The notes under the pieces were generated by a model. The model was not told the origin of the DNA, did no database searches, and was given only the letters and a program-made list of their open reading frames with translations. A program made the position numbers and the translations under genes. A stretch of DNA of 64,000 bases, taken from positions 3,416,001 through 3,480,000 of the forward strand of contig NZ_CP038015.1 in the NCBI RefSeq assembly GCF_004367585.1, written 5' to 3'. The stretch comes from Paenisporosarcina antarctica (GTDB lineage: Bacteria; Bacillota; Bacilli; Bacillales_A; Planococcaceae). Positions 48,924 through 62,932 of this stretch are shown in pieces; position 1 is the first letter of the stretch, and every line of letters starts with the position of its first letter.

Positions 48924-48999
48924 TTAGTGCTTTTCCCAATACAATCTGCCGATTTGCCAGTGGCTGATAGATGGCTGAGAAGGTTACCAATTAACTTAA

Positions 49000-49032
49000 A
49001 AAGACGTGTCCCAAAGTAAACTTTGGACACGC
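49000..49032 (-). terminator. terminator of the isomerase/transketolase/kinase operon
   Basis: CGTGTCCCAAAG (49005-49016) pairs with CTTTGGACACG (49021-49031) with one bulge and a 4-base loop. On minus it is followed by TCTTTTT. It lies 10 bases after the kinase stop. Confidence 0.9.
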
Positions 49033-49041
49033 TTTCTTTCA

Positions 49042-50532
49042 TTATTTCATTAAGACACTTTGTACCGTTTGTTTCCACCCACGATAATATTCTTTTCTTA
49101 CTTCGTCTGACATCGTAGGTTGATACAATTTATTTTCTAGATTAAGCTTACTTATTTCATCGATTGAATCCCAGATTCCTACACCTAACCCAGCCAGGTA
49201 GACAGAACCCATTGACGATAATTCCGCAACGTTAGAAACGACAACATTTGTTGCTAACATATCTGATTGGAACTGCATCAGGAAGCTGTTTGCTGTTGCA
49301 CCACCATCAACTCTTAACTCTTTCATGTTGATGTTTGACTCTGATTTCATGAGTTCGATTGCATCTTTTACTTGATAAGCTATACTTTCTAATGCCGCAC
49401 GAACGAAGTGTGCTTTTCCTGTGTTTGTGCTGATTCCCATAATCGCTGCTCGTGCATACGAGTTCCAGTATGGTGCACCTAATCCAACAAAAGCAGGGAC
49501 GAAATAAATTCCTTGATTATCTGAAATAGAACGAGCTAATGATTCAACCTCATTGACGTCGTTAATCAACTCTAGATTTTCCTTCAGCCACCTAATGGTA
49601 TCACCTGTACTATGAATGATTCCTTCAAGTGCATAACTTATTTCACCATTTATCCCCCAGGCGATAGAGGTGACCAAACCATTCTCCGCCCGCACCAACT
49701 CTCCCGTGTGCATTAATACTGATGTACCTGTGCCATAGGTTGCTTTGGCCATGCCTTTTTCAAAACATTTTTGACCAAATAACGCGCCTTGTGAATCACC
49801 GATAACCCCTGAAATAGGCAGACCTGTAAATGGAAGGTCGGCATCTGCTAACACACCAAATTCATCATTTGAGCTTCTCACTTTAGGGAGCATAGGAGCT
49901 GGTATTCGGAATATTTCTAGTAATTCAGCGTCCCACTCAAGTGTATGAATATTATATAAAAGTGTCCTACTCGCATTCGTATAGTCTGTAGCATGGACCT
50001 TACCACCAGTTAGCTTCCAGATAAGCCAACTATCAATGGTTCCAAGTATGAGCTTACCTTCATTCGCACGTTCCCTCACACCTGGTATTGTGTCCATGAT
50101 CCATTTAACTTTAGATGCTGAAAAATAAGGATCGAGCTTTAAACCAGTTTTTGATTTTATCGCATTTTCGTACCCTAAGAGCTTTAGCTCCTTACACAGA
50201 TCAGCGGTTCTTCTGCATTGCCATACAATTGCATTATAGACAGGAACGCCTGTCTCTTTATCCCAAACAACGATGGTTTCCCTTTGGTTTGTAATTGCTA
50301 AAACACTCAACTCGCTCAGTGAAATCGAGGCTGATTCAACCACTTCTAATAATACTCTTTTAACATTCTCATAGATTTCAATCGGGTCATGCTCTACCCA
50401 CCCTAGCTGCGGGTAATATTGCTTATGACTGACGGCCCTTTTATGTGTGATCGTTCCAGTTGTATTGACAAGAAGTGCCTTTGTTCCAGATGTACTTTGA
50501 TCAATGGCAAGAATATATTCCGTTGTCGTCAT
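49042..50532 (-). CDS. FGGY kinase, glycerol-kinase-like with altered substrate pocket
   Basis: A 496-aa sugar/polyol kinase. Most of it follows GlpK: NQRETIVVWDKETG, AIVWQCRRTADLC, LDPYFSASKVKWI, TDYTNASRTLLYN and GLGAPYWN. The first motif is DQSTSGTKA instead of DQGTTSSRA. The catalytic loop is GDSQGALFGQ (GlpK GDQQAALFGQ), and GTSVLMHTG replaces GCFMLMNTG, so the Gln and Phe that contact glycerol become Ser. Arg-Glu, Trp, Tyr and Asp are kept. It probably phosphorylates a larger polyol or ketose. There is no glpF or glpD nearby. It is the last gene of an operon with the split transketolase. Confidence 0.85.
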   Translation of the reverse strand: MTTTEYILAIDQSTSGTKALLVNTTGTITHKRAVSHKQYYPQLGWVEHDPIEIYENVKRVLLEVVESASISLSELSVLAITNQRETIVVWDKETGVPVYNAIVWQCRRTADLCKELKLLGYENAIKSKTGLKLDPYFSASKVKWIMDTIPGVRERANEGKLILGTIDSWLIWKLTGGKVHATDYTNASRTLLYNIHTLEWDAELLEIFRIPAPMLPKVRSSNDEFGVLADADLPFTGLPISGVIGDSQGALFGQKCFEKGMAKATYGTGTSVLMHTGELVRAENGLVTSIAWGINGEISYALEGIIHSTGDTIRWLKENLELINDVNEVESLARSISDNQGIYFVPAFVGLGAPYWNSYARAAIMGISTNTGKAHFVRAALESIAYQVKDAIELMKSESNINMKELRVDGGATANSFLMQFQSDMLATNVVVSNVAELSSMGSVYLAGLGVGIWDSIDEISKLNLENKLYQPTMSDEVRKEYYRGWKQTVQSVLMK

Positions 50533-50545
50533 CTTCGCACCTCTA

Positions 50546-51511
50546 CTAGTTAGTTAACAGTTGTTCTGCTAGCTTTTTCACATTCTCTACACATAGTCCG
50601 TAATGTTTAAATACTTGAGCTGAAGTTCCTGTAATAGCTGGTTCATCTGGAATTCCCAAAATCTTCATCGGTACGGGATGATTTTGAACGACAACCTCTG
50701 CTACAGCAGCACCTAATCCACCATGGATGCTATGTTCTTCAATCGTAATAATTCTACCAGTTTCCTTTGCTGCTTTAATAATCGCCTCTTCATCCAAAGG
50801 TTTGATCGTATGAATATTAATAACACGACAGTGGATTCCAACTTGTTCTAATGCTTCAGCAGAGTCTAATGCGACACGAACGGTTTCTCCGCTTGCAATA
50901 ATGGTAAGGTCATTCCCAGTCTTCATCGTAACGGCCTTCCCAATTTCAAATTCATAGTCTTCCGAAAGATACGAATCCTCTACTGGATTACGTCCAATTC
51001 GAACATATACAGGTTGATCAAATTCCACTAACGCCTCAATCATCTTTTTCGCTTCATGGCGATCTGCTGGCATCATGACATGCAGACCTGGAATCGCGCG
51101 CGTCACCGCTAAATCTTGGAGTGAGTGATGTGACATTCCAAGCGCGCCATAACTGACACCACCACTGATACCAATTAATTTCACATTTGTCTGTGAATAA
51201 GCAACATCCACCTTAATTTGTTCGATACTTCTCATACTTAAAAAACAGGCAGGTGATGCAATGAATGGCTTTTTCCCTGAGTGAGCTAAACCTGAAGCCA
51301 TACCAACGATATTTTGTTCAGCAATTCCCACTTCAACGATTTGTTCAGGTAGTTCATTTCCAAATTGCACCATAGAAGCGGATCCTCTTGAATCACTAGT
51401 GAGAACTAAAATATCTCTATTTTTCTTTCCTAATTCTAACAATGTATCACTGATGACTTGACGGTTAGCAATCTTATTACTACGTGTAGGTTTTAAAGCG
51501 ACATTCTTCAT
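50546..51511 (-). CDS. transketolase, C-terminal subunit
   Basis: This 321-aa protein has the pyrimidine-binding and C-terminal domains. VEVGIAEQNIVGMASGLAHS contains the Glu that activates thiamine diphosphate. MSHHSLQDLAVTRAIPGLHV and MPADRHEAKKMIEALV follow, then IITIEEHSIHGGLGAAVAEV. Its ATG overlaps the stop of the N-terminal subunit gene (ATGA), so the two halves are made together. Split transketolases are used in special sugar pathways such as apulose-4-phosphate or sulfosugar routes. The acceptor is unknown here. Confidence 0.9.
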   Translation of the reverse strand: MKNVALKPTRSNKIANRQVISDTLLELGKKNRDILVLTSDSRGSASMVQFGNELPEQIVEVGIAEQNIVGMASGLAHSGKKPFIASPACFLSMRSIEQIKVDVAYSQTNVKLIGISGGVSYGALGMSHHSLQDLAVTRAIPGLHVMMPADRHEAKKMIEALVEFDQPVYVRIGRNPVEDSYLSEDYEFEIGKAVTMKTGNDLTIIASGETVRVALDSAEALEQVGIHCRVINIHTIKPLDEEAIIKAAKETGRIITIEEHSIHGGLGAAVAEVVVQNHPVPMKILGIPDEPAITGTSAQVFKHYGLCVENVKKLAEQLLTN

Positions 51512-52338
51512 ACTAAAACCTCCAGTTGTTTTGAAAGTTCATCTATTGCCAAATTAAACTGTTCTTCCGTAGGTACCTTATGATGCCAAGCCACTTGATT
51601 TTCAGAAAAAGAAATGCCTTTGCCCTTAACTGTGTTGGCAACAATCATCGTCGGCTTACCTGCAACTCTTGGCGTAGTTGAGAATACTTCCACCAACTGC
51701 TCAATATCATTTCCATCTACTTCGACAACTTCCCAGCCAAAGCTTCTCCACTTGTCTCCTAATGGTTCCAATCCCATAACGTCTTCGGTGCTTCCAGTAA
51801 TTTGCAATCGATTACGGTCGATAATTGCAATAAGATTATCAAGCTTATACTGAGCGGCAGCCATGGCACCTTCCCATATAGAGCCTTCTGCTTGCTCTCC
51901 ATCTCCCATTAATGTGTAAACTTTATATGACTTCCCGTCCAATTTAGCTGCTAAAGCCATACCAACAGAAATCGGCAGTCCATGTCCTAACGCACCCGTA
52001 TTCATTTCAATACCAGGCACCTTATTATTAGGATGTCCGATGAGTCTTGATCCAAATTGCGAAAAAGTTTTTAATTCTTCCTTTGGGAAAAAGCCCTTAT
52101 CAGCTAAAATTGACCACAAGGCTTCAACTGAATGTCCTTTACTTTGAACATAGCGATCACGATCGGCCCATTTTGGCTTACTTGGATCAATATTCATCAC
52201 TTTATAGTACAAAACAGTTAAGATATCAGTACTCGATAATGAGCCACCAGTATGTCCTGTACGTGCTTCATAAATCATCGTTAATAGGTCCATCCGGATT
52301 TCGACGGCTTTTCTTTTTAGAAAAGTAATTTCTTCCAT
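51508..52338 (-). CDS. transketolase, N-terminal subunit
   Basis: This 276-aa protein has the thiamine-diphosphate-binding domain. ARTGHTGGSLSSTDILTVLY and YVQSKGHSVEALW are followed by GDGEQAEGSIWEGAMAAAQY and NLIAIIDRNRLQITG, which hold the metal/diphosphate motif (GDG...N). With the next gene it makes a full transketolase of about 597 aa, shorter than the house-keeping enzyme of about 665. The RBS is GGGAGGG. The gap to the isomerase-like gene is 60 nt. Confidence 0.92.
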   Translation of the reverse strand: MEEITFLKRKAVEIRMDLLTMIYEARTGHTGGSLSSTDILTVLYYKVMNIDPSKPKWADRDRYVQSKGHSVEALWSILADKGFFPKEELKTFSQFGSRLIGHPNNKVPGIEMNTGALGHGLPISVGMALAAKLDGKSYKVYTLMGDGEQAEGSIWEGAMAAAQYKLDNLIAIIDRNRLQITGSTEDVMGLEPLGDKWRSFGWEVVEVDGNDIEQLVEVFSTTPRVAGKPTMIVANTVKGKGISFSENQVAWHHKVPTEEQFNLAIDELSKQLEVLV

Positions 52339-52398
52339 GAATGTAGCCCTCCCAATTCTTGATTTTTATTTAGGCTTGTGCTCCCCTAAATGATTTGA

Positions 52399-53835
52399 TT
52401 ACTTATTCAGATCACTTCCACGCAGCCAAGCCTTAATTTCTTCCACAGTTGGATCTACTGGATCTGGAGTTAAACCTGGAATGTATTCACACGCTTCAAA
52501 AAGCACAGGAATAACGTTCGCATGAATTCCAACTGAATGGTGAATATATGGACCTTTAACAAGCTTTTCTTCCCATAACGGCCAATCATTTACTTCTACC
52601 CATACATAGGAACCTCTCGTGAATGGCCCATCAATACCTTTTGCTTTTCCAAGAAAAATGGAATATTCACCATGATCACCATCAAAGCGTGCGAGCGTCA
52701 TCTCTCCACCCTTGATTTCCCCTTCATGTGTACCAGGAGCATGATCGTCAAATAAGAAATGTTTTTTTAGTTGCGGCTTGTCTTCAACACTTAACGATAC
52801 CGGGAAGTTACCACAATGGAATAATAACTCACCATTTGGATTTTCAGGGTGTCGAATTGTAATATCTGCAAAGAACGTAGGAGCGGTATTTAATGTAGCT
52901 GCCTGAACCATGATAGATGTAATCGCACCATGAATATCTGTTTCACAAACTACAGGAATTTGCTCATCCGTTAGAATCGCATTGGCTAAACATGGCATAA
53001 TACCGATAAGGTCTTGTAAAGTTGACCAGCATTGAATCGCAATCGCTGAACTTCCTGTCTCTGTGGCTATTTGTTTCATCGCTACTTTTAATGAAGCAAT
53101 TCGGAGAATATCCTTTTCTGTGACGGCACTCCAGTCAAGCTCTTTTTTAATATAGCTAATTGCTTTAGCTAATTCTGGGCTATCCTTTTTTTCAACTTTT
53201 AGCGTTGCTTTTGTCAATTCATCAAGGGTAATCGGATGAATCTGTATACCAAAGGTCTCCAATAATTCACCCTCATTACAAATTACAGACCAAAAATCCG
53301 AGGGTCTCGTTGAGATTTGTAAGATTCGTAGATTCGAAAATTGTTTAACAACATTTGCCGCTCCTATGAAGTTTTTAAATCCCCTTTCAAAAATCGGAGC
53401 ATCTATTGCACAATTTGTAATATAAGTAAATTTCACATTAAATCTTCTTAAAACTTTACCGGTTGCAATAATTCCACATTGTGTATCTCGAAGCCGCATT
53501 CCATCTGCTAGTGGCGCTTCATCTCTTGGTCCCCAAAGCAATACTGGCTTTCCAATTGCTTTTGCGATCCGTGCAACAACATCTTCGGTTCCAAAATTAC
53601 AATGAGGGAAAAACAACGCATCCACTTCAGCATCTCTAAAATGTTTAATAATTGCCGCTTCTTCATGACGCTCAAACAACAAACCCTCATCGTTTATACC
53701 TTCCAAATCGACGATTTCAATATCCATTCCAAAAATTTCTATTTTTTCTCTAATTAGATTTTTATATTTTAGTGCATCTTCTTTACTAAATGTGAACCTT
53801 CGTGTTGGCGCAAAACCCAGTTTTAACTTTTCCAT
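52399..53835 (-). CDS. L-fucose/L-arabinose isomerase family protein
   Basis: A 478-aa protein. LGFAPTRRFTFSKEDALKY and DALFFPHCNFGTEDVVARIA begin the fold; AIAIQCWSTLQDLIGIMPCL, PVVCETDIHGAITSIMV (Glu) and PTFFADI (Asp), with GPYIHHSVGIHAN (His), supply the expected metal ligands of a manganese aldose-ketose isomerase. The C-terminal domain has KGGEMTLARFDGDHGEY. It opens the operon with the split transketolase and the kinase. The likely reaction is aldose to ketose; the sugar is unknown. AGGAGG precedes ATG. Confidence 0.8.
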   Translation of the reverse strand: MEKLKLGFAPTRRFTFSKEDALKYKNLIREKIEIFGMDIEIVDLEGINDEGLLFERHEEAAIIKHFRDAEVDALFFPHCNFGTEDVVARIAKAIGKPVLLWGPRDEAPLADGMRLRDTQCGIIATGKVLRRFNVKFTYITNCAIDAPIFERGFKNFIGAANVVKQFSNLRILQISTRPSDFWSVICNEGELLETFGIQIHPITLDELTKATLKVEKKDSPELAKAISYIKKELDWSAVTEKDILRIASLKVAMKQIATETGSSAIAIQCWSTLQDLIGIMPCLANAILTDEQIPVVCETDIHGAITSIMVQAATLNTAPTFFADITIRHPENPNGELLFHCGNFPVSLSVEDKPQLKKHFLFDDHAPGTHEGEIKGGEMTLARFDGDHGEYSIFLGKAKGIDGPFTRGSYVWVEVNDWPLWEEKLVKGPYIHHSVGIHANVIPVLFEACEYIPGLTPDPVDPTVEEIKAWLRGSDLNK

Positions 53836-53984: not shown

Positions 53985-54000
53985 ACTAAACTAATTTAGT
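53985..54000. promoter_or_regulatory. LacI-type operator candidate 1
   Basis: ACTAAA-CTAA-TTTAGT has perfect 6-bp arms. It lies 150 bases upstream of the isomerase start. The same arms and spacer length occur at 62640-62655, ahead of the second LacI gene. Confidence 0.6.
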
Positions 54001-54059
54001 CGTGTTTACTTATTTCTTTTAATAATAACAACTTAAATCATATCAGTCAACGAGTTACA

Positions 54060-54073
54060 TAAACTAATTTAGT
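54060..54073. promoter_or_regulatory. LacI-type operator candidate 2
   Basis: TAAACTAATTTAGT is identical to 14 of the 16 bases of the site at 53985, 73 bases away, as expected for a pair of looped or cooperative sites. Confidence 0.55.
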
Positions 54074-54246: not shown

Positions 54247-55743
54247 TCAAGATCGAAACTGGGCTAGTTTATGATTAATTTCTTTTGTTTTCGAATAAAC
54301 CATTTGATAGATTTCAAATAATTGTTGGTACTTCTCAACACGATCTTTGTGTGGGTGAAATTCAGATGAGTACTGAATAAATTTCTTTGCACATTCTTCC
54401 AACGATGAAAACCAACCCACACCATAGGCTGCTAACATGGCTGCACCCAAACCAGGTCCTTGTTCACTTTTCAATTTTATTACCTTTGCATTAAAAATAT
54501 CGGCCTGGATCTGTAACCAACTATCGCTTTTCGCTCCACCACCGATGGAGATGATGGTATCAACATTTTTTCCTGCTTGCCGGAATAGTTGAATCGTTTC
54601 ATTTAGTGAAAAAGTAATCCCTTCAAGCACTGCTCTAACAAAGTGCTCTTGCCGATGGGACCCACTGATTCCAATGAAACTCCCACGTATCAATGAATCT
54701 GGATGAGGGGTTCTTTCTCCAAACAAATAGGGTGTAAACAGCAGTCCCTCTGAACCTACAGGAACGTCATAAATCGCGTCAATCATTTGTTCAAACGTCT
54801 CGTTCTGTGCAAAAGTATTCTTGAACCAGGTTAAACTTTGACCCGCAGACAAGGTAACCCCCATGGAATAAAAGGAATTCACTTTTCCATGATTAAAAAA
54901 GTGAACATTCCCTTGGTAATCTGTTTCTTTATCACTTTCATAGGAAAGAATGACACCGGATGTCCCGATACTGCACAACGTATCCTTTGATGATAGAATT
55001 CCAGCCCCTATTGCACCGCAAGCATTATCGGCTCCTCCGGCAAATACCTTTGTCTGCACACTGAGTCCTAATTCACTTGCCACTTCTGGCCGCACTGTTC
55101 CAACTAGTGCATGTGATTCCACAAGCGGAGGACAAATAGTTTCGGGGATAGAAAATTTACGAAGAATCTCAGAATTCCACTCTTTGTTCACCACATCTAA
55201 AAGGAGCGTTCCTGCCGCATCAGAATATTCGCTGTGGATCATCCCGGTCATCCAATACCGGACATAATCCTTAGGTAGCAAGAATACAGCCGCTTGTTTA
55301 AAGAGATCCGGTTCATGTTCTTGCACCCATAAGATTTTCGGGAGGGTGAAGCCTTCTAATACTAGATTCTTAGAGATAGCTAGAATTTCCTCTCCAAATT
55401 CTTCCGTAATCCTTTCACATTGTTGGCTCGTCCTTGTGTCATTCCAAAGAATTGCAGGACGCAATACCTGAAAATTTTCATTTAATAAAACTAATCCATG
55501 CATCTGACCGGAGTAACTGATTCCTTCGATATCACTACTATCACCTGTAAAAATTGACACTAACTCAGCTAGCGCCTTTGCCGTTTGTTTAACCCATTCC
55601 TCTGGATTCTGTTCACTATATCCAGCACTTTTTTGAATAAGCGGGTACGGGTGAGAAACTTCTGCTACAACTTCGCCAGACTGATCCACTAAAATTGCTT
55701 TTACTGCACTCGTTCCTAAATCAATTCCGATAACATACTTCAT
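54247..55743 (-). CDS. xylulokinase-like FGGY kinase
   Basis: A 498-aa kinase. It starts YVIGIDLGTSAVKAILVD, has ISYSGQMHGLVLLN (the XylB substrate motif), ILWNDTRTSQQC, GGADNACGAIGAG with the catalytic Asp, and ISIGGGAKSDSWLQIQAD. It phosphorylates a ketose, D-xylulose in the closest family. A longer frame starts at GTG 55752; ATG 55743 has AGGAG at 8-base spacing. It is the last gene of the rbs-like operon, 28 nt after rbsK. There is no xylose isomerase, so the substrate may arise from the isomerase-like protein of the next unit. Confidence 0.88.
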   Translation of the reverse strand: MKYVIGIDLGTSAVKAILVDQSGEVVAEVSHPYPLIQKSAGYSEQNPEEWVKQTAKALAELVSIFTGDSSDIEGISYSGQMHGLVLLNENFQVLRPAILWNDTRTSQQCERITEEFGEEILAISKNLVLEGFTLPKILWVQEHEPDLFKQAAVFLLPKDYVRYWMTGMIHSEYSDAAGTLLLDVVNKEWNSEILRKFSIPETICPPLVESHALVGTVRPEVASELGLSVQTKVFAGGADNACGAIGAGILSSKDTLCSIGTSGVILSYESDKETDYQGNVHFFNHGKVNSFYSMGVTLSAGQSLTWFKNTFAQNETFEQMIDAIYDVPVGSEGLLFTPYLFGERTPHPDSLIRGSFIGISGSHRQEHFVRAVLEGITFSLNETIQLFRQAGKNVDTIISIGGGAKSDSWLQIQADIFNAKVIKLKSEQGPGLGAAMLAAYGVGWFSSLEECAKKFIQYSSEFHPHKDRVEKYQQLFEIYQMVYSKTKEINHKLAQFRS

Positions 55744-55771
55744 CCATTTCACTCCTAAAAGCTTGCAAAAG

Positions 55772-56650
55772 CTAATTATTTTCTACATCCTCACGCGTTG
55801 GCATTCCTTTTTGCGCACCCATCTTAGTTGTCGAAAGACCTGCTGCTGTATTCGCAAATAGAATTGCTTCGCGGAGTGGGCGGCCTTCAGAAATTGCGAC
55901 ACCAAAGGCTCCAGTAAACGTATCACCTGCTCCAGTCGTATCAACTACATCCACTTTAATAGAAGGTACAGTTATCACGCTATTTCCGTCGCAGTATACA
56001 ACACCTTTTTCCCCACAGGTAATCAAAAGTTTAGTAGGAAATTTTCTCAATGTTTCTTCGATACTGCTTGAGGTGTTCAAAACGGTGAGATATTCATGTT
56101 CATTCGGAGTAATATAGGTAATCCGGGTTAAAACTTCTTCCGGTATTGCGATAGCCGGTGCCGGATTAAGGATGATGATCTTATCATACGGAGAAAGATA
56201 TTTCGTCATAAACACAATGCTTTCTAGTGGGACCTCTAATTGCATAAGAATAACGTCAAATGACACCAAGGATTCCGCAACTTTTGTTAAATACTCTTCA
56301 TTGGTATATTTATTTGCGCCTGGAACGACGACAATACGATTGTCTTTTTCACAGATTTCAATCACTGCTACTCCTGTAGGGATATTGTCCAAAATGTTTA
56401 TGTAGGTTGTATCAATGTTTTCTTCTAATAAATTAGCCAATAAAATTTCTCCATTTTGATCCTTACCAATCGAACCAAACATCGTAACCTCCCCACCAAG
56501 CCTTGCTGCAGCAACCGCTTGATTGGCTCCCTTACCACCTGGAGATGCAAAGAAGTTACTTCCAAGAACGGTTTCCCCTTTTTTGGGGCTTATATCCGTC
56601 TCTACTACTAAATCCATATTTATACTACCGATCACAGCAATTTTCGCCAT
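55772..56650 (-). CDS. rbsK: ribokinase
   Basis: A 292-aa PfkB-family kinase. VIGSINMDLVVETD at the start, GGKGANQAVAAARLGGEV (residues about 41-58), ILNPAPA, ITPNEHEY and DTTGAGDTFTGAFGVA with the catalytic Asp are all ribokinase-specific. It phosphorylates ribose or a related sugar at O5. It lies between the binding-protein gene and the xylB-like gene. AGGAGGAG precedes ATG. An upstream hairpin at 56776 may lower its expression relative to rbsB. Confidence 0.93.
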   Translation of the reverse strand: MAKIAVIGSINMDLVVETDISPKKGETVLGSNFFASPGGKGANQAVAAARLGGEVTMFGSIGKDQNGEILLANLLEENIDTTYINILDNIPTGVAVIEICEKDNRIVVVPGANKYTNEEYLTKVAESLVSFDVILMQLEVPLESIVFMTKYLSPYDKIIILNPAPAIAIPEEVLTRITYITPNEHEYLTVLNTSSSIEETLRKFPTKLLITCGEKGVVYCDGNSVITVPSIKVDVVDTTGAGDTFTGAFGVAISEGRPLREAILFANTAAGLSTTKMGAQKGMPTREDVENN

Positions 56651-56829: not shown

Positions 56830-57768
56830 TTACTTTTTATCAGACATAAAAACATCAACTAAAACTTCTGCTTCTGGTTTTTTATCATCTTCTAAGAAAT
56901 CGTGTACATAATTAACTGCCTCAGACCCGATAAAATCAAAATCTTGAACAGCTGTTACAGACATTTGACCTTGATCAATGAGATCGTACGCTTCATTTGC
57001 TCCGTCGAAACCAATAACAATAATTCCATCATCACTTCTACCAGCTGTTTCAATAGCACGTGCAATACCAACAGCCATTGTATCATTTTGCGCAAATACA
57101 ACATCAATATCATCATGCTTGGCAAGCAAATCAGACATTGCCGCTTCTGCAGGAGCCATCGAGAAGTCACCTACAGCTGTATCAATAATTTCAAATTTAC
57201 TGCTTGCGTTTTCAGCAGGATCAATAATACTTAAGAAGCCGCCCCCACGTTCACGTTGTGGAGCAGTACCGATAACACCTTCCATATGAATTACATTACC
57301 ACCTTCAGGTAATTTTTCTTGGAGCCATTCACCAACAAGTTTTCCACCTTTTAGGTTATCAGTTACTAAGTATGAAAGAACTCCATCTACTTCTACTGCT
57401 CGGTCCACTGTAACAACCGGAATATCTTGTGCAATCGCATCCTTAATCGCATTTGCTGTTGATGACTCATCAGCAGGGTTAATAATAATAGCTTCTATCC
57501 CTTTTTGAAGAGCATCCTCAATTTGTGAAGGTTGCATGGATGCATCATTTTGTCCATCATAAACTAATACTTCATAGCCTAACTCTTCCCCTTGTTTAAC
57601 TACTGAATCACGAAGGACATGGAAGAAAGGATTCCCCAAGTCGGCCATCAATAAAGCAATCTTCTTTTTGCCTGCCTCTTCTTCTCCACCTGTTTCGTTG
57701 TTACTACATCCTCCTAAAACCAGTAAGAATGCTGCTAATGCTAAAAATACTAACGATAACTTTTTCAT
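56830..57768 (-). CDS. rbsB: ABC sugar transporter substrate-binding lipoprotein
   Basis: This 312-aa periplasmic-binding-protein-type receptor has a lipoprotein signal peptide (KKLSLVFLALAAFLLVLGGC, lipobox LGGC, lipidated Cys21) and an acidic linker, then a type I binding fold: IALLMADLGNPFFHVLRDSV, GIEAIIINPADESSTANAI, VVTVDRAV and VFAQNDTMAVGIARAIE. The PFF and Asp/Arg residues match RbsB-like proteins for ribose or other monosaccharides. The permease follows 27 nt after rbsB. RBS GGGGGG before ATG. Confidence 0.92.
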   Translation of the reverse strand: MKKLSLVFLALAAFLLVLGGCSNNETGGEEEAGKKKIALLMADLGNPFFHVLRDSVVKQGEELGYEVLVYDGQNDASMQPSQIEDALQKGIEAIIINPADESSTANAIKDAIAQDIPVVTVDRAVEVDGVLSYLVTDNLKGGKLVGEWLQEKLPEGGNVIHMEGVIGTAPQRERGGGFLSIIDPAENASSKFEIIDTAVGDFSMAPAEAAMSDLLAKHDDIDVVFAQNDTMAVGIARAIETAGRSDDGIIVIGFDGANEAYDLIDQGQMSVTAVQDFDFIGSEAVNYVHDFLEDDKKPEAEVLVDVFMSDKK

Positions 57769-57795: not shown

Positions 57796-58734
57796 TTATC
57801 TAGCACTCTTACGGTCTAAAAGAACCGCAAGTAAAATAACTAGCCCTTTAATGAATTGCTGAAAGAAAGCAGACACTCCGATAATATTTAGACCATTATT
57901 AAGTACACCTATAATCAGGACACCAATAAAGGTTCCAAACAACCTACCTTTTCCGCCAGCTAAACTTGTACCACCAATAACAACCGCTGCAATGGCATCT
58001 AATTCGAAACCCATTCCTGCAGTAGGCTGTGATGAACTAAGACGTGACGTTAAGATAACACCTGCAAGCGCCGACATCGCACCACTAATGACATAAACCA
58101 TTGTTTTAATTCGGTTAGTCGGCATCGAGGAAAGTCTTGCCACTTCTTCGTTTCCACCTATCGCATAAACACCACGCCCAAAAACTGTATTTTGCAAAAC
58201 AATTAATAGAATGATTAAGACAACAATGAAAATAATCATCGGAAATGGAATTCCCATCACACTGCCTTGGCTAAAGAAATCTAGTATTGGAGAGTTTGCG
58301 GTAATCCCCATCGCAGGAATACCATCAGACATGATCATCGTTACTCCTCTAAACATAGTCATTGTAGCTAAAGTAACAATGAAGGCTTGTAATTTAACTT
58401 TCGAAATAAAGAATCCGTTAAATAGACCAAGTAATGCACCAATAATTAGAACGGCTGGGATGGCAATGATATCAGGCGTTCCACTTGCAATGAGCAATCC
58501 TAATATCATGCCGGATAACCCTAAAATAGCCCCTACCGATAAATCAATTCCGCCCGTTAAAATAACAAAGGTCATCCCAAAAGCAATCAAACCATTAATG
58601 GAAACCTGGCGAAAAATATTTAGAATATTGTACATCGATAAAAATTTTGGGTTCATAAAGGATATGATCAAAACTAAAACAAGTAAAACAATAAATGTTC
58701 CGTACTTTTTATAAATATTGCCGATTTTATCCAC
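57796..58734 (-). CDS. rbsC: ABC sugar transporter permease
   Basis: A 312-aa membrane protein of the RbsC/BPD_transp_2 family. About eight to ten helices; INGLIAFGMTFVILTGGIDL, SVGAILGLSGMILG and GRGVYAIGGNEEVARLSSMP are the standard motifs, and SLAGGKGRLFGTFIGVLIIG follows. A longer frame reaches back into rbsA; I place the start at GTG 58734 because GGAGGG lies 7 bases before it and the product then opens MDKIGNIYKKYG. It starts 1 nt after the rbsA stop. Confidence 0.92.
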   Translation of the reverse strand: MDKIGNIYKKYGTFIVLLVLVLIISFMNPKFLSMYNILNIFRQVSINGLIAFGMTFVILTGGIDLSVGAILGLSGMILGLLIASGTPDIIAIPAVLIIGALLGLFNGFFISKVKLQAFIVTLATMTMFRGVTMIMSDGIPAMGITANSPILDFFSQGSVMGIPFPMIIFIVVLIILLIVLQNTVFGRGVYAIGGNEEVARLSSMPTNRIKTMVYVISGAMSALAGVILTSRLSSSQPTAGMGFELDAIAAVVIGGTSLAGGKGRLFGTFIGVLIIGVLNNGLNIIGVSAFFQQFIKGLVILLAVLLDRKSAR

Positions 58735-58735
58735 T

Positions 58736-60220
58736 TTATATCCCTCCGCCTGTTGCAAATTCCATGATTTTTTCTTGTGTTGCATCTTTAATATCAAAAA
58801 TCTTTTTAATCTTTTTCTCATGCATAACGGCAACACGATCACAAATACCTAGTACCTCGGGGAGCTCACTTGAAACAACGATGATGGCAACTCCATCTTT
58901 TTTCAATAGGTTGATAATTTCATAGATTTCCTTCTTCGCCCCTATATCTACACCCCTTGTCGGTTCGTCAAGAATGAGAATTTTGGGTTGGGTAATCAAC
59001 CATTTGGCGATAACAATTTTCTGTTGATTCCCACCACTCAATTTGCCAACTTCAATTGTTTGATTTGGAGTTCGGACATTTAATTTTTTGATATATTCGG
59101 AGACAACCTCCGAAATTTTCCCCTTGTTAACAAACTTATTTTCAGTAAATGTTTTTAAAGAGGGGAGCACTGTATTTTCCGCAACAGAAAAGCTTAAGAT
59201 TAATCCTTCATTTTTCCTGTCCTCGGTGATAAAGCCGATTCCCATTTTCTTCGCCACAATCGGGGAATTAATTTTAACTTCCTTTTGATTAATCAAAATC
59301 GAACCTGATTCAAAGGGCACACTACCAAAGATGGCATGCATGACATCGGTGCGGCCTGAACCCATTAATCCAGAGAATCCAAGAATCTCTCCTTTTCTCA
59401 ATTCGAAATTTATATCCTCAAATTTCCCTTTTTTCGTCAACCCTTTCACAGATAGAACTACTTCTCCAGGTTCCATTTCTATTCTTGGAAATCGATCTTC
59501 CAAATCATATCCAACCATCATACTGACAATCTCATTGAAGGAAGTATCCTCCGTTGCCTTTTGCCCAATAAACGAACCATCACGCATCACGGTAATTTGA
59601 TCACATAATTCAAAGATTTCTTCCATACGGTGAGAAATATAAACAAAGGAAACGCCTTTCTCTTTTAACCCTCGGATGATGTTAAAGAGTAAATCAATTT
59701 CTTTATCTGTTAACGCCGCAGTAGGCTCATCCATAATAATAAGCTCCGCATCCATTAATAACGCTTTGGCGATTTCAACTAGTTGCCTTTTACCAACGGA
59801 AATTTCTTTAATGAGTGCATTTGGATCTACATCCAGTCCAAGTAAATTCAGCTTTTCTCTTGCTTGCTTTACCATCGACTTTTTATCGATTAGACCAAAT
59901 TTATTCCTTTTTTCTTTACCTAAAAACATGTTATCTACAATGCTCATTTCGTTTAATACGTTTAATTCTTGATGAATAAAAGCCATCCTCTTATTCTCAC
60001 TATCTTTAATCGTATGAAAATCTTGAACAGTACCGTTAATTTCGATGTTTCCAGTATCCTTTGTATAAACCCCTGTTAGAATTTTCATTAATGTTGATTT
60101 ACCAGCACCATTTTCACCCATAAGTGCGTGTATTTCCTTTTCCTTCACGTGAATCTTGGCATTTTTCAAAACTTTAACTTCGCCAAAACTCTTACTAATT
60201 TCAGTCATTTTTAACTCCAC
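58736..60220 (-). CDS. rbsA: ABC sugar transporter ATP-binding protein (two domains)
   Basis: A 494-aa protein with two fused ATPase domains. The first has GENGAGKSTLMKILTG (Walker A), ISVGKRQLVEIAKALL and LIIMDEPTAALT. The second has a degenerate P-loop, GLMGSGRTDVMHAIFG, then LSGGNQQKIVIAKWL and ILILDEPTRGVD. This is the RbsA/MglA type. The likely start is GTG 60220 after GGGAGGTG; the ATG four codons later is possible. It follows lacI by 40 nt. Confidence 0.94.
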   Translation of the reverse strand: MELKMTEISKSFGEVKVLKNAKIHVKEKEIHALMGENGAGKSTLMKILTGVYTKDTGNIEINGTVQDFHTIKDSENKRMAFIHQELNVLNEMSIVDNMFLGKEKRNKFGLIDKKSMVKQAREKLNLLGLDVDPNALIKEISVGKRQLVEIAKALLMDAELIIMDEPTAALTDKEIDLLFNIIRGLKEKGVSFVYISHRMEEIFELCDQITVMRDGSFIGQKATEDTSFNEIVSMMVGYDLEDRFPRIEMEPGEVVLSVKGLTKKGKFEDINFELRKGEILGFSGLMGSGRTDVMHAIFGSVPFESGSILINQKEVKINSPIVAKKMGIGFITEDRKNEGLILSFSVAENTVLPSLKTFTENKFVNKGKISEVVSEYIKKLNVRTPNQTIEVGKLSGGNQQKIVIAKWLITQPKILILDEPTRGVDIGAKKEIYEIINLLKKDGVAIIVVSSELPEVLGICDRVAVMHEKKIKKIFDIKDATQEKIMEFATGGGI

Positions 60221-61559: not shown

Positions 61560-62597
61560 CTACACTTTTTTACATGATTTCCGTATCGTAAGTCTTGTAT
61601 CAACAATTGTTTTTAATCTTACGTTACCTGTATTATTTATTAAGCGAATGACCTGTTCAACTGCCTTTGTAGCCATCATTTCCTTTTCAACGTGGACCGT
61701 TGTTAATTCTGGACTAATAATGACAGATTCTGAAATATTATCAAAACCCACAACGGAAATATCTTCCGGCACCCGTAAGCCTAATTCATTTAGTGATTTG
61801 ATAACACTAATGGCTAAATAATCATTTTCACAGAATAAAGCAGTTGGTAATGCTTTGTTATTTTTGATTCTCTCCTTTATCTGCTTCTGAAATTGTTCCT
61901 GTGCAGACAAAATGGATGGGGACAATACAAATATGTCTTCCTCAGCTAGTTGAAAACCTAGATCATTCTGAGCTTTCTCAAACCCTTTTTTCCTACTCTC
62001 GAAGTTGTGCATCCTAAAGTCTGACTGAACATAACCAATATGCTTATGACCTTGCTTTACCATATAAGAACACGCTTGGTAAGCGCCCATAATATTATTC
62101 ATCACAACAAAATCAACCTCTAGTTCATCTACAAGATTATCGAGTACCACCAAGTTTTTCTGGATTGCCAAAACGGCTTCAATTTGTTTTTTATTTAGGT
62201 TCGTACCCAATAAAATAATCCCATTATGTTCGGATTCCTTTTGAAGCACTCGTATATCTCGTTCAAATTGTGAAATATCAATCGTTGAAAATAATAAGGA
62301 GTAGCCCCTCAAGCGACTTTGTTCTTCAATATAGTGAATGAGCTCCATAAAAAATGGCTGTTTATTATATTGCTCTAACACAAATGTTGAATCAATGATA
62401 GCTAAAAACCGCAGGGAATTATTCATGCGATAAACCTGTTCAGCCTTTACCATGGAGCGGGGAATATATCCTGTCTCTTTTACGATTTTTAATATTTTTT
62501 CTCTTGTTTCCTTGCTTATACCAGCTTTCCCACTTAGTGCAAGCGAGACGGCAGATTTGGATACACTAGCAAGTTTAGCAATATCATCCATTTTCAT
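61560..62597 (-). CDS. second LacI-family regulator
   Basis: A 345-aa regulator. The HTH MDDIAKLASVSKSAVSLALS (about 3-22), with recognition residues SKSAVSLAL, differs from the first regulator (ISTVSRYIN), so it should read another operator. The sensor domain has LRFLAIIDSTFVLEQYNKQP, LPTALFCENDYLAISVIKSL and VPEDISVVGFDNISESV. It stands alone. Palindromes with arms ACTAAA/TTTAGT lie 43 bases upstream of its own start and ahead of the isomerase operon, suggesting that it controls both. Confidence 0.9.
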   Translation of the reverse strand: MKMDDIAKLASVSKSAVSLALSGKAGISKETREKILKIVKETGYIPRSMVKAEQVYRMNNSLRFLAIIDSTFVLEQYNKQPFFMELIHYIEEQSRLRGYSLLFSTIDISQFERDIRVLQKESEHNGIILLGTNLNKKQIEAVLAIQKNLVVLDNLVDELEVDFVVMNNIMGAYQACSYMVKQGHKHIGYVQSDFRMHNFESRKKGFEKAQNDLGFQLAEEDIFVLSPSILSAQEQFQKQIKERIKNNKALPTALFCENDYLAISVIKSLNELGLRVPEDISVVGFDNISESVIISPELTTVHVEKEMMATKAVEQVIRLINNTGNVRLKTIVDTRLTIRKSCKKV

Positions 62598-62639: not shown

Positions 62640-62655
62640 ACTAAATAAATTTAGT
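62640..62655. promoter_or_regulatory. LacI-type operator candidate 3 (autoregulation)
   Basis: ACTAAA-TAAA-TTTAGT: perfect arms and a 4-base spacer, 43 bases upstream of the second lacI start. It has the same arms as the site at 53985. Confidence 0.6.
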
Positions 62656-62723: not shown

Positions 62724-62740
62724 ACTAAACTAAATTTGTT
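62724..62740. promoter_or_regulatory. LacI-type operator candidate 4
   Basis: ACTAAACTAAATTTGTT shares the left half of the site at 53985 exactly and has a diverged right half. It lies 84 bases upstream of candidate 3. The remaining 62598-63026 shows no gene. Confidence 0.4.
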
Positions 62741-62932
62741 TATGAATCAACCTTATTTCTACTCTAAACACAAAGTTAAATCGCCACCATATAGTAGCGA
62801 TCATCACAAAGCATCGTGGACCGAATCAGTTTCTAGTCAAAAGACGAAGCACCAGTTAGTTCAGTATCCATCTATAAAATAATAACATACTGTTTAATCC
62901 TGTAATTGTGAATTTCTGACTTTATTAATAAA

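Follow-up and report, generated by a model that had tools for sequence, protein, structure and literature searches.

The stretch analysed here, called the window below, comprises 64,000 nucleotides of Paenisporosarcina antarctica (NZ_CP038015.1, positions 3,416,001 to 3,480,000), and it carries a quartet of minus-strand open reading frames in the order ISO, TKN, TKC, KIN. ISO (52399–53835, 478 aa) is a proposed D-apiose isomerase and belongs to a branch of the arabinose/fucose isomerase superfamily that we call clade A. TKN (51508–52338, 276 aa, Transketolase_N) is the proposed N-terminal subunit of an AptA-like apulose-4-phosphate transketolase, assigned by a tree and by residues H119 and H253. 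It overlaps by 4 bases with TKC (50546–51511, 321 aa, Transket_pyr and Transketolase_C), the proposed AptB-like C-terminal subunit, which was placed by a quick tree. KIN (49042–50532, 496 aa, FGGY_N and FGGY_C) is a proposed AplK-like apulose kinase from the glycerol-kinase branch of the FGGY kinases, and a terminator-like hairpin on the same strand (48998–49037, -18.2 kcal/mol, z -4.6) lies 3′ of the quartet.

A scan with one genome per species gave 150 relatives of the isomerase, and the best 80 were compared together with flanks of up to 10 kb. These 80 loci came from Bacillaceae and Paenibacillaceae, and their isomerases were 75–97% identical to ISO. The order isomerase, TKN, TKC, kinase was found at 79 of the 80 loci, and the remaining contig stops inside TKN. 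Because the order is conserved to this extent, the occurrence of the quartet as a unit is not due to chance, and the first-pass annotation had been right to describe an isomerase, a two-gene transketolase and an FGGY kinase as one unit at these coordinates. Within the genus of the window the isomerase was found in one of nine genomes, namely that of the window itself, and isomerase relatives of any kind, distant for the most part, were found in 93 of 398 genomes of the phylum. An account of this quartet was not found among the literature matches listed on apiose pathways and split transketolases.

In all likelihood, the quartet encodes a transketolase pathway for D-apiose that is served by an RbsABC-type importer and a dedicated LacI repressor. 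The importer would bring D-apiose into the cell, the isomerase would convert it to D-apulose, and the glycerol-kinase-like FGGY kinase would phosphorylate D-apulose to apulose 4-phosphate. In the reaction of the two-subunit transketolase, glyceraldehyde 3-phosphate would then accept a two-carbon unit from apulose 4-phosphate, so that xylulose 5-phosphate is formed and dihydroxyacetone phosphate is left. Until an inducer appears, a LacI repressor that occupies paired sites flanking the promoter would silence the quartet as well as its own gene. We infer every substrate and product in this scheme, along with the action of the repressor and the cargo of the importer.

The gene content and order, the transketolase clade, the kinase pocket, the apiosidase linkage and the operator-like sites were all computed here. 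The apiose-type logic put forward by the first-pass annotation was supported by the grouping with AptA/AptB, the AplK-type pocket, the apiosidase linkage and the E. coli-type importers found in relatives. Like the known D-apiose pathway (ApsI, AplK, AptA/AptB; MetaCyc PWY-8089; Pectobacterium, E. coli ST131/STc14), the quartet has a transketolase of the same clade and a kinase with the same pocket signature; the known pathway likewise has an RbsABC-type importer and, in three enterobacterial clusters, an isomerase of the same superfamily. In contrast, the isomerase of the quartet branches separately and deeply, at about 27% identity, its importer belongs to another branch, its regulator is a LacI where the known clusters have a SorC-like sugar-binding regulator, and its gene order is isomerase-first. 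Judged by sequence comparison, the quartet most likely represents the known pathway in a Gram-positive form, in which the isomerase is divergent and the LacI regulon predictable. If this is true, a testable apiose pathway that spans at least 80 Bacillaceae and Paenibacillaceae loci takes the place of what the Listeria and Monoglobus records label as a fucose/arabinose isomerase family protein, a transketolase and a glycerol kinase.

Transketolase subunits and kinase

The genes aptA, aptB and aplK are named in E. coli SE15, and growth on D-apiose is described for E. coli strains with a cluster of the SE15 kind and for P. carotovorum; SE15 itself is not among the strains tested there (PMC13001218). 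The SE15 reference genes were taken from its sequence record, and TKN, TKC and the kinase were 46%, 35% and 38% identical to their counterparts in that cluster. Since other split transketolases of the phylum reach up to 57% identity to TKN, identity alone is no proof, and trees were therefore made. TKN fell into a 26-row clade that includes four enterobacterial AptA rows (support 100/98), apart from 28 split transketolases of a phylum sample that were classed as general without a look at their gene neighbours, and apart from the second transketolase pair of two clostridial loci (L138 and L140, described below). In the quick tree of TKC, which had 26 such comparison rows, TKC grouped with four enterobacterial AptB rows in a set of 25 rows (SH-aLRT 99). 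Two columns, chosen by scanning the TKN alignment itself, followed the same division. H119 was present in 25/25 ungapped apt-type rows and in 2/28 general rows, and H253 in 24/24 apt-type rows (one further row is gapped) and in none of the 28 general rows. By these comparisons, TKN and TKC belong to the AptA/AptB group of split transketolases. Grouping with general or DXP-like enzymes, which the first-pass annotation had named as the outcome that would speak against it, was checked by the trees and did not occur.

KIN is a full-length FGGY kinase that scored 632 bits against a curated GlpK cut-off of 590 and lay far under the cut-offs for ribulokinase and xylulokinase. At the positions of Q246 and F270 in glycerol kinase (E. 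coli GlpK numbering), all 24 apt-type kinases, including KIN and E. coli AplK, have two serines; one of the 24, from locus L137, adjoins a clade B isomerase and has no transketolase pair in the fetched stretch. All 17 glycerol kinases, including that of this genome (C1:2549847-2551316), keep Q and F. The kinase tree set these 17 apart (SH-aLRT 93). The pocket signature, found in 24/24 apt-type kinases and 0/17 glycerol kinases, thus assigns KIN to the predicted AplK type. GlpK resembles KIN in being a full-length FGGY kinase over the GlpK cut-off but differs in keeping Q and F at the pocket, and plain glycerol use by KIN was rejected since the glycerol-pocket residues are changed. The residue signatures would serve to distinguish apulose kinase from glycerol kinase, and likewise an apulose-phosphate transketolase from the general split type.

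The score of KIN above the glycerol-kinase cut-off would also agree with the same sugar being used in another order, with the transketolase cleaving unphosphorylated apulose to give xylulose 5-phosphate and dihydroxyacetone, and KIN then phosphorylating dihydroxyacetone; by chemical reasoning, removing two carbons from apulose does leave dihydroxyacetone. However, E. coli AplK is itself closely related to glycerol kinase (495 bits), and the two pocket changes that KIN has in common with it, and not with the glycerol kinases, are expected for a larger substrate. We therefore consider this order improbable and retain phosphorylation of apulose before the transketolase step.

The isomerase and its two clades

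ISO scored 24.9 bits against PF02952, the fucose-isomerase C-domain, under the cut-off of 29.3, and its sole NCBIfam match was SftI. The pathways with sulfoquinovose SftI and with sulfofructose transketolase have an isomerase superfamily and the use of a transketolase in common with the quartet. Sulfofructose transketolase is a split enzyme. The SftI match of ISO reached only 104.7 bits against a cut-off of 700, and a sulfoquinovose route was rejected on this ground. The predicted structure of ISO had a modest mean pLDDT of 63.7 with a weak C-terminal domain. It matched L-arabinose isomerase (Z 19.6, rmsd 4.5, 388 residues aligned), L-fucose isomerase (Z 16.8, rmsd 4.2, 388 residues aligned) and the D-arabinose isomerase 3a9r (Z 17.1, rmsd 4.0, 380 residues), and the best row of another fold lay below these at Z 11.5. 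E298, D324 and H433 were conserved in at least 97% of 45 rows spanning both isomerase clades, and the analogy with fucose isomerase makes them plausible ligands of a metal. For the step from apiose to apulose, ISO offers the superfamily and fold of the sugar isomerases, with the substrate role predicted.

The same fold, with the D-arabinose isomerase 3a9r among the solved matches, would suit ordinary pentose use, for example of D-arabinose via ribulose, with the transketolase as a spare general one. TKN and TKC lie outside the general transketolase group, however, and KIN is far under the ribulokinase and xylulokinase cut-offs, which makes ordinary pentose use extremely improbable.

The first-pass annotation had set a fucose-type isomerase against a xylose-isomerase-like enzyme in the known pathway and regarded it as a departure. 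This did not hold, since in the aptA/aptB/aplK clusters of Sodalis, Rahnella and Klebsiella the interval between aptB and aplK holds a gene annotated as fucose/arabinose isomerase family or fucose isomerase. What stood of the contrast was distance, not membership in another family. In a quick tree, ISO and the enterobacterial isomerases formed two clades (A and B) with long branches and a deep split. Clade A comprised the group of the window, Listeria, Monoglobus and several Clostridia with apt genes, together with five rows without apt neighbours. Clade B included the enterobacteria and the loci L137, L138, L140, L141 and L142. Both a transketolase and a kinase of apt type accompany the isomerase in L141 and L142, L137 has the kinase, and the genomes of L138 and L140 combine a nearby apt-type transketolase with an AplK-type kinase at another place. 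Three further clade B genomes were checked (G024, G318 and G198), and only glycerol-kinase-type matches were found in them.

Apart from lacking apsI, the E. coli apiose cluster is similar to the Pectobacterium cluster, and it still supports growth (PMC13001218), for which reason orthology of the isomerase was not treated as a defining feature of the pathway. From the comparison of these two clusters, together with the Sodalis, Rahnella and Klebsiella annotations, we infer that ApsI is of the fucose/arabinose-isomerase-family kind. The apiose cluster of SE15 itself has two SDR oxidoreductases and no isomerase (L118:32042-33657), and an isomerase-less cluster is likewise remarked upon for Escherichia in PMC13001218.

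When 38 rows of the isomerase tree were labelled for apt linkage, a minimum of three changes was required, a number that does not separate one origin from two. We tentatively suggest, with somewhat less than even credence, that apiose isomerase arose twice in one superfamily, as clade A in Bacilli and some Clostridia and as clade B in enterobacteria and other Clostridia, both having joined up with the same transketolase and kinase. In that case the pathway would have an interchangeable first step, and the filling of one slot by two deeply separated isomerases would be a clean example of replacement within a superfamily.

Other surroundings were seen for both clades. A clade A isomerase lies beside two URO-D-like proteins and an ABC importer in L129:9356-16308 and beside a class II aldolase and an FGGY kinase in L132:5410-10482, and further clade A isomerases stand in non-apt settings in L130, L135 and L136. 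Among clade B, L138:9899-18021 and L140:9146-17249 represent one clostridial cluster type, with a clade B isomerase and two split transketolase pairs, one inside the apt clade and one outside. A TAL_FSA transaldolase belongs to this cluster type and was identified in L140. Our guess is that the source organisms are gut bacteria.

Apiosidases and importers

Apiosidases of family PF13204 were among the neighbour families of the quartet. In 40 related genomes, 21 of 69 PF13204 matches (67 of them above the family cut-off) lay within 10 kb of the isomerase, where 0.21 were expected, an enrichment of about 100-fold in counts that are not independent since the genomes are related. A PF13204 gene lay within this distance in 18 of the 40. 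A Listeria monocytogenes record (L123:5296-13086) has a beta-glucoside PTS and then a PF13204 gene after the quartet, an arrangement that suggests uptake of an apiosyl glucoside. The gene order fits lmo1031-lmo1035 as these are listed in PMC2996996, a mapping made by order only. Monoglobus pectinilyticus has the quartet with a PF13204/DUF5060 gene and an RbsABC set. Nucleoside-hydrolase-like proteins also recur near the quartet, with a Sde182-type protein at L012:14831-16354 (a 6-locus cluster) and an IU_nuc_hydro protein at L041:14817-15746 (a 14-locus cluster), and these neighbours are possibly unrecognised glycosidases.

Upstream of the quartet in the window, the minus strand encodes an RbsB-like binding protein (56830–57768), an RbsC-like permease (57796–58842) and an RbsA-like ATPase (58736–60220), each a probable part of an apiose importer, the latter two assigned by family match and locus comparison. 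Orthologues of RbsB at 78% identity or more were found in five of 40 quartet genomes, and the next best matches reached at most 41%. Four of the five have RbsB no more than 10 kb away from the isomerase. In G408, the fifth, the two genes are on different contigs, RbsB near a contig start and the isomerase near a contig end. Because its RbsB orthologues track the quartet, RbsABC is probably the apiose importer of this species.

Other relatives have importers closer to that of E. coli. Importers 48–59% identical to that of the SE15 cluster adjoin the quartet in L028 and L079, and E. coli-like importers at 43–53% adjoin it in L127 and L131. The importers of these four loci represent a second importer type, 43–59% identical to that of the E. 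coli cluster, which also lies beside a set with a clade B isomerase in L142. In L028, the binding protein shares 74% identity with PDB 4ry0, a structure titled ribose transporter protein, and it also matches 5ibq (E 1.5e-135), which was reportedly solved with apiose.

Several observations weigh against the apiose pathway. ISO shares only some 27% identity with the isomerases of the enterobacterial apt clusters and is not orthologous to them, and the kinase tree left the enterobacterial AplK on an open fork. One genome with a row in the apt clade of TKN (L165, genome G028) has a single kinase match at E ≤1e-80, and this is of glycerol-kinase type. In five genomes, clade A isomerases had no apt genes in the fetched stretch, one of which (L130) ends about 0.5 kb past the isomerase, and no AplK-type kinase was found among the matches at E ≤1e-60; four of the genomes had only the glycerol-kinase type and one had no match, with L207 read by eye. 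Because these five stand without apt genes or an AplK-type kinase, clade A isomerases apparently serve something besides apiose as well. PF13204 was absent from seven of the 40 related genomes, and no PF13204 gene was found in the genome of the window, so the organism would need free apiose or another hydrolase. The RbsB of the window shares just 25% identity with the binding protein of the E. coli cluster, and the solved proteins closest to this RbsB go by the name of D-ribose-binding proteins. RbsB is also adjoined by RbsK, which passes the ribokinase cut-off, and the rest of this genome yielded no closer RbsA. On account of the solved ribose-binding relatives, the adjoining RbsK and the lack of a closer RbsA elsewhere, RbsABC may carry ribose too. 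Ribose proteins are also the best family for RbsA, RbsB and RbsC, although none of the three reaches the curated ribose cut-offs.

Three of these points, namely clade A isomerases outside apt contexts, an importer outside the E. coli branch and a genome without an apiosidase, would also fit a different, rarer sugar that is used via the same three steps and to which apiose is merely related. The apiosidase linkage in relatives, the E. coli-type importers beside the quartet in L028, L079, L127 and L131, and the shared AptA and AplK signatures all argue for apiose instead, and we regard a rarer sugar as quite improbable.

Between the importer and the quartet (54247-56650) lie an XylB-like and an RbsK-like kinase, and a hairpin is located between RbsB and RbsK. 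The first-pass annotation had placed RbsABC, RbsK-like and XylB-like genes upstream of the quartet. Their positions were confirmed, but the two kinases were rejected as conserved members of the unit, since relatives of both at more than 60% identity accompany the quartet at only one of the 80 loci (L009, where the isomerase is 97% identical). Weaker relatives, at 45% or less, were found in L025 and L084.

Predicted regulatory sites of the quartet

The 411-base gap upstream of ISO holds promoter-like and operator-like sites of the quartet's own. A promoter-like site (54022–54050, minus strand, TTGACT-17-TATTAT) was assigned by consensus match only, and such sites are not commoner in the region than in shuffles (43 found, 47.5 expected). 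On either side of it lie operator-like sites 1 (53987–54000) and 2 (54060–54073), both on the minus strand and defined by sequence pattern. The proposed repressor of the quartet is LACI2 (61560–62597, minus strand), a LacI-family regulator about 8 kb away in the window. Two more operator-like sites, 3 (62642–62655, minus strand, one mismatch) and 4 (62729–62742, plus strand), lie upstream of its gene. A predicted repressor and operator can thus be supplied for the quartet. An operator-like site with at most one mismatch was not found between 54073 and 62642, and control of RbsABC by the same operator was rejected.

The sequence ACTAAATTAGTTTA occurs as two exact copies flanking the promoter-like site before ISO and as two near copies before LACI2. 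The pattern ACTAAATTWGTTTA, selected after these sites had been seen, had four matches in the window with at most one mismatch, all at the ISO and LACI2 upstream regions, where 0.34 were expected. Only close matches stand out, as 25 matches were found in the window with up to three mismatches and 24.4 in shuffles. Genome-wide, ACTAAATTWGTTTA had three exact matches, all at the ISO and LACI2 promoters, and the reversed control had one. Among the relatives, a LACI2 homologue (more than 40% identity, within 1.5 kb) is divergent from the isomerase at 64 of the 80 loci, and the half-site ACTAAAC was present in 55 of 57 LACI2–isomerase gaps, compared to 6.4 expected.

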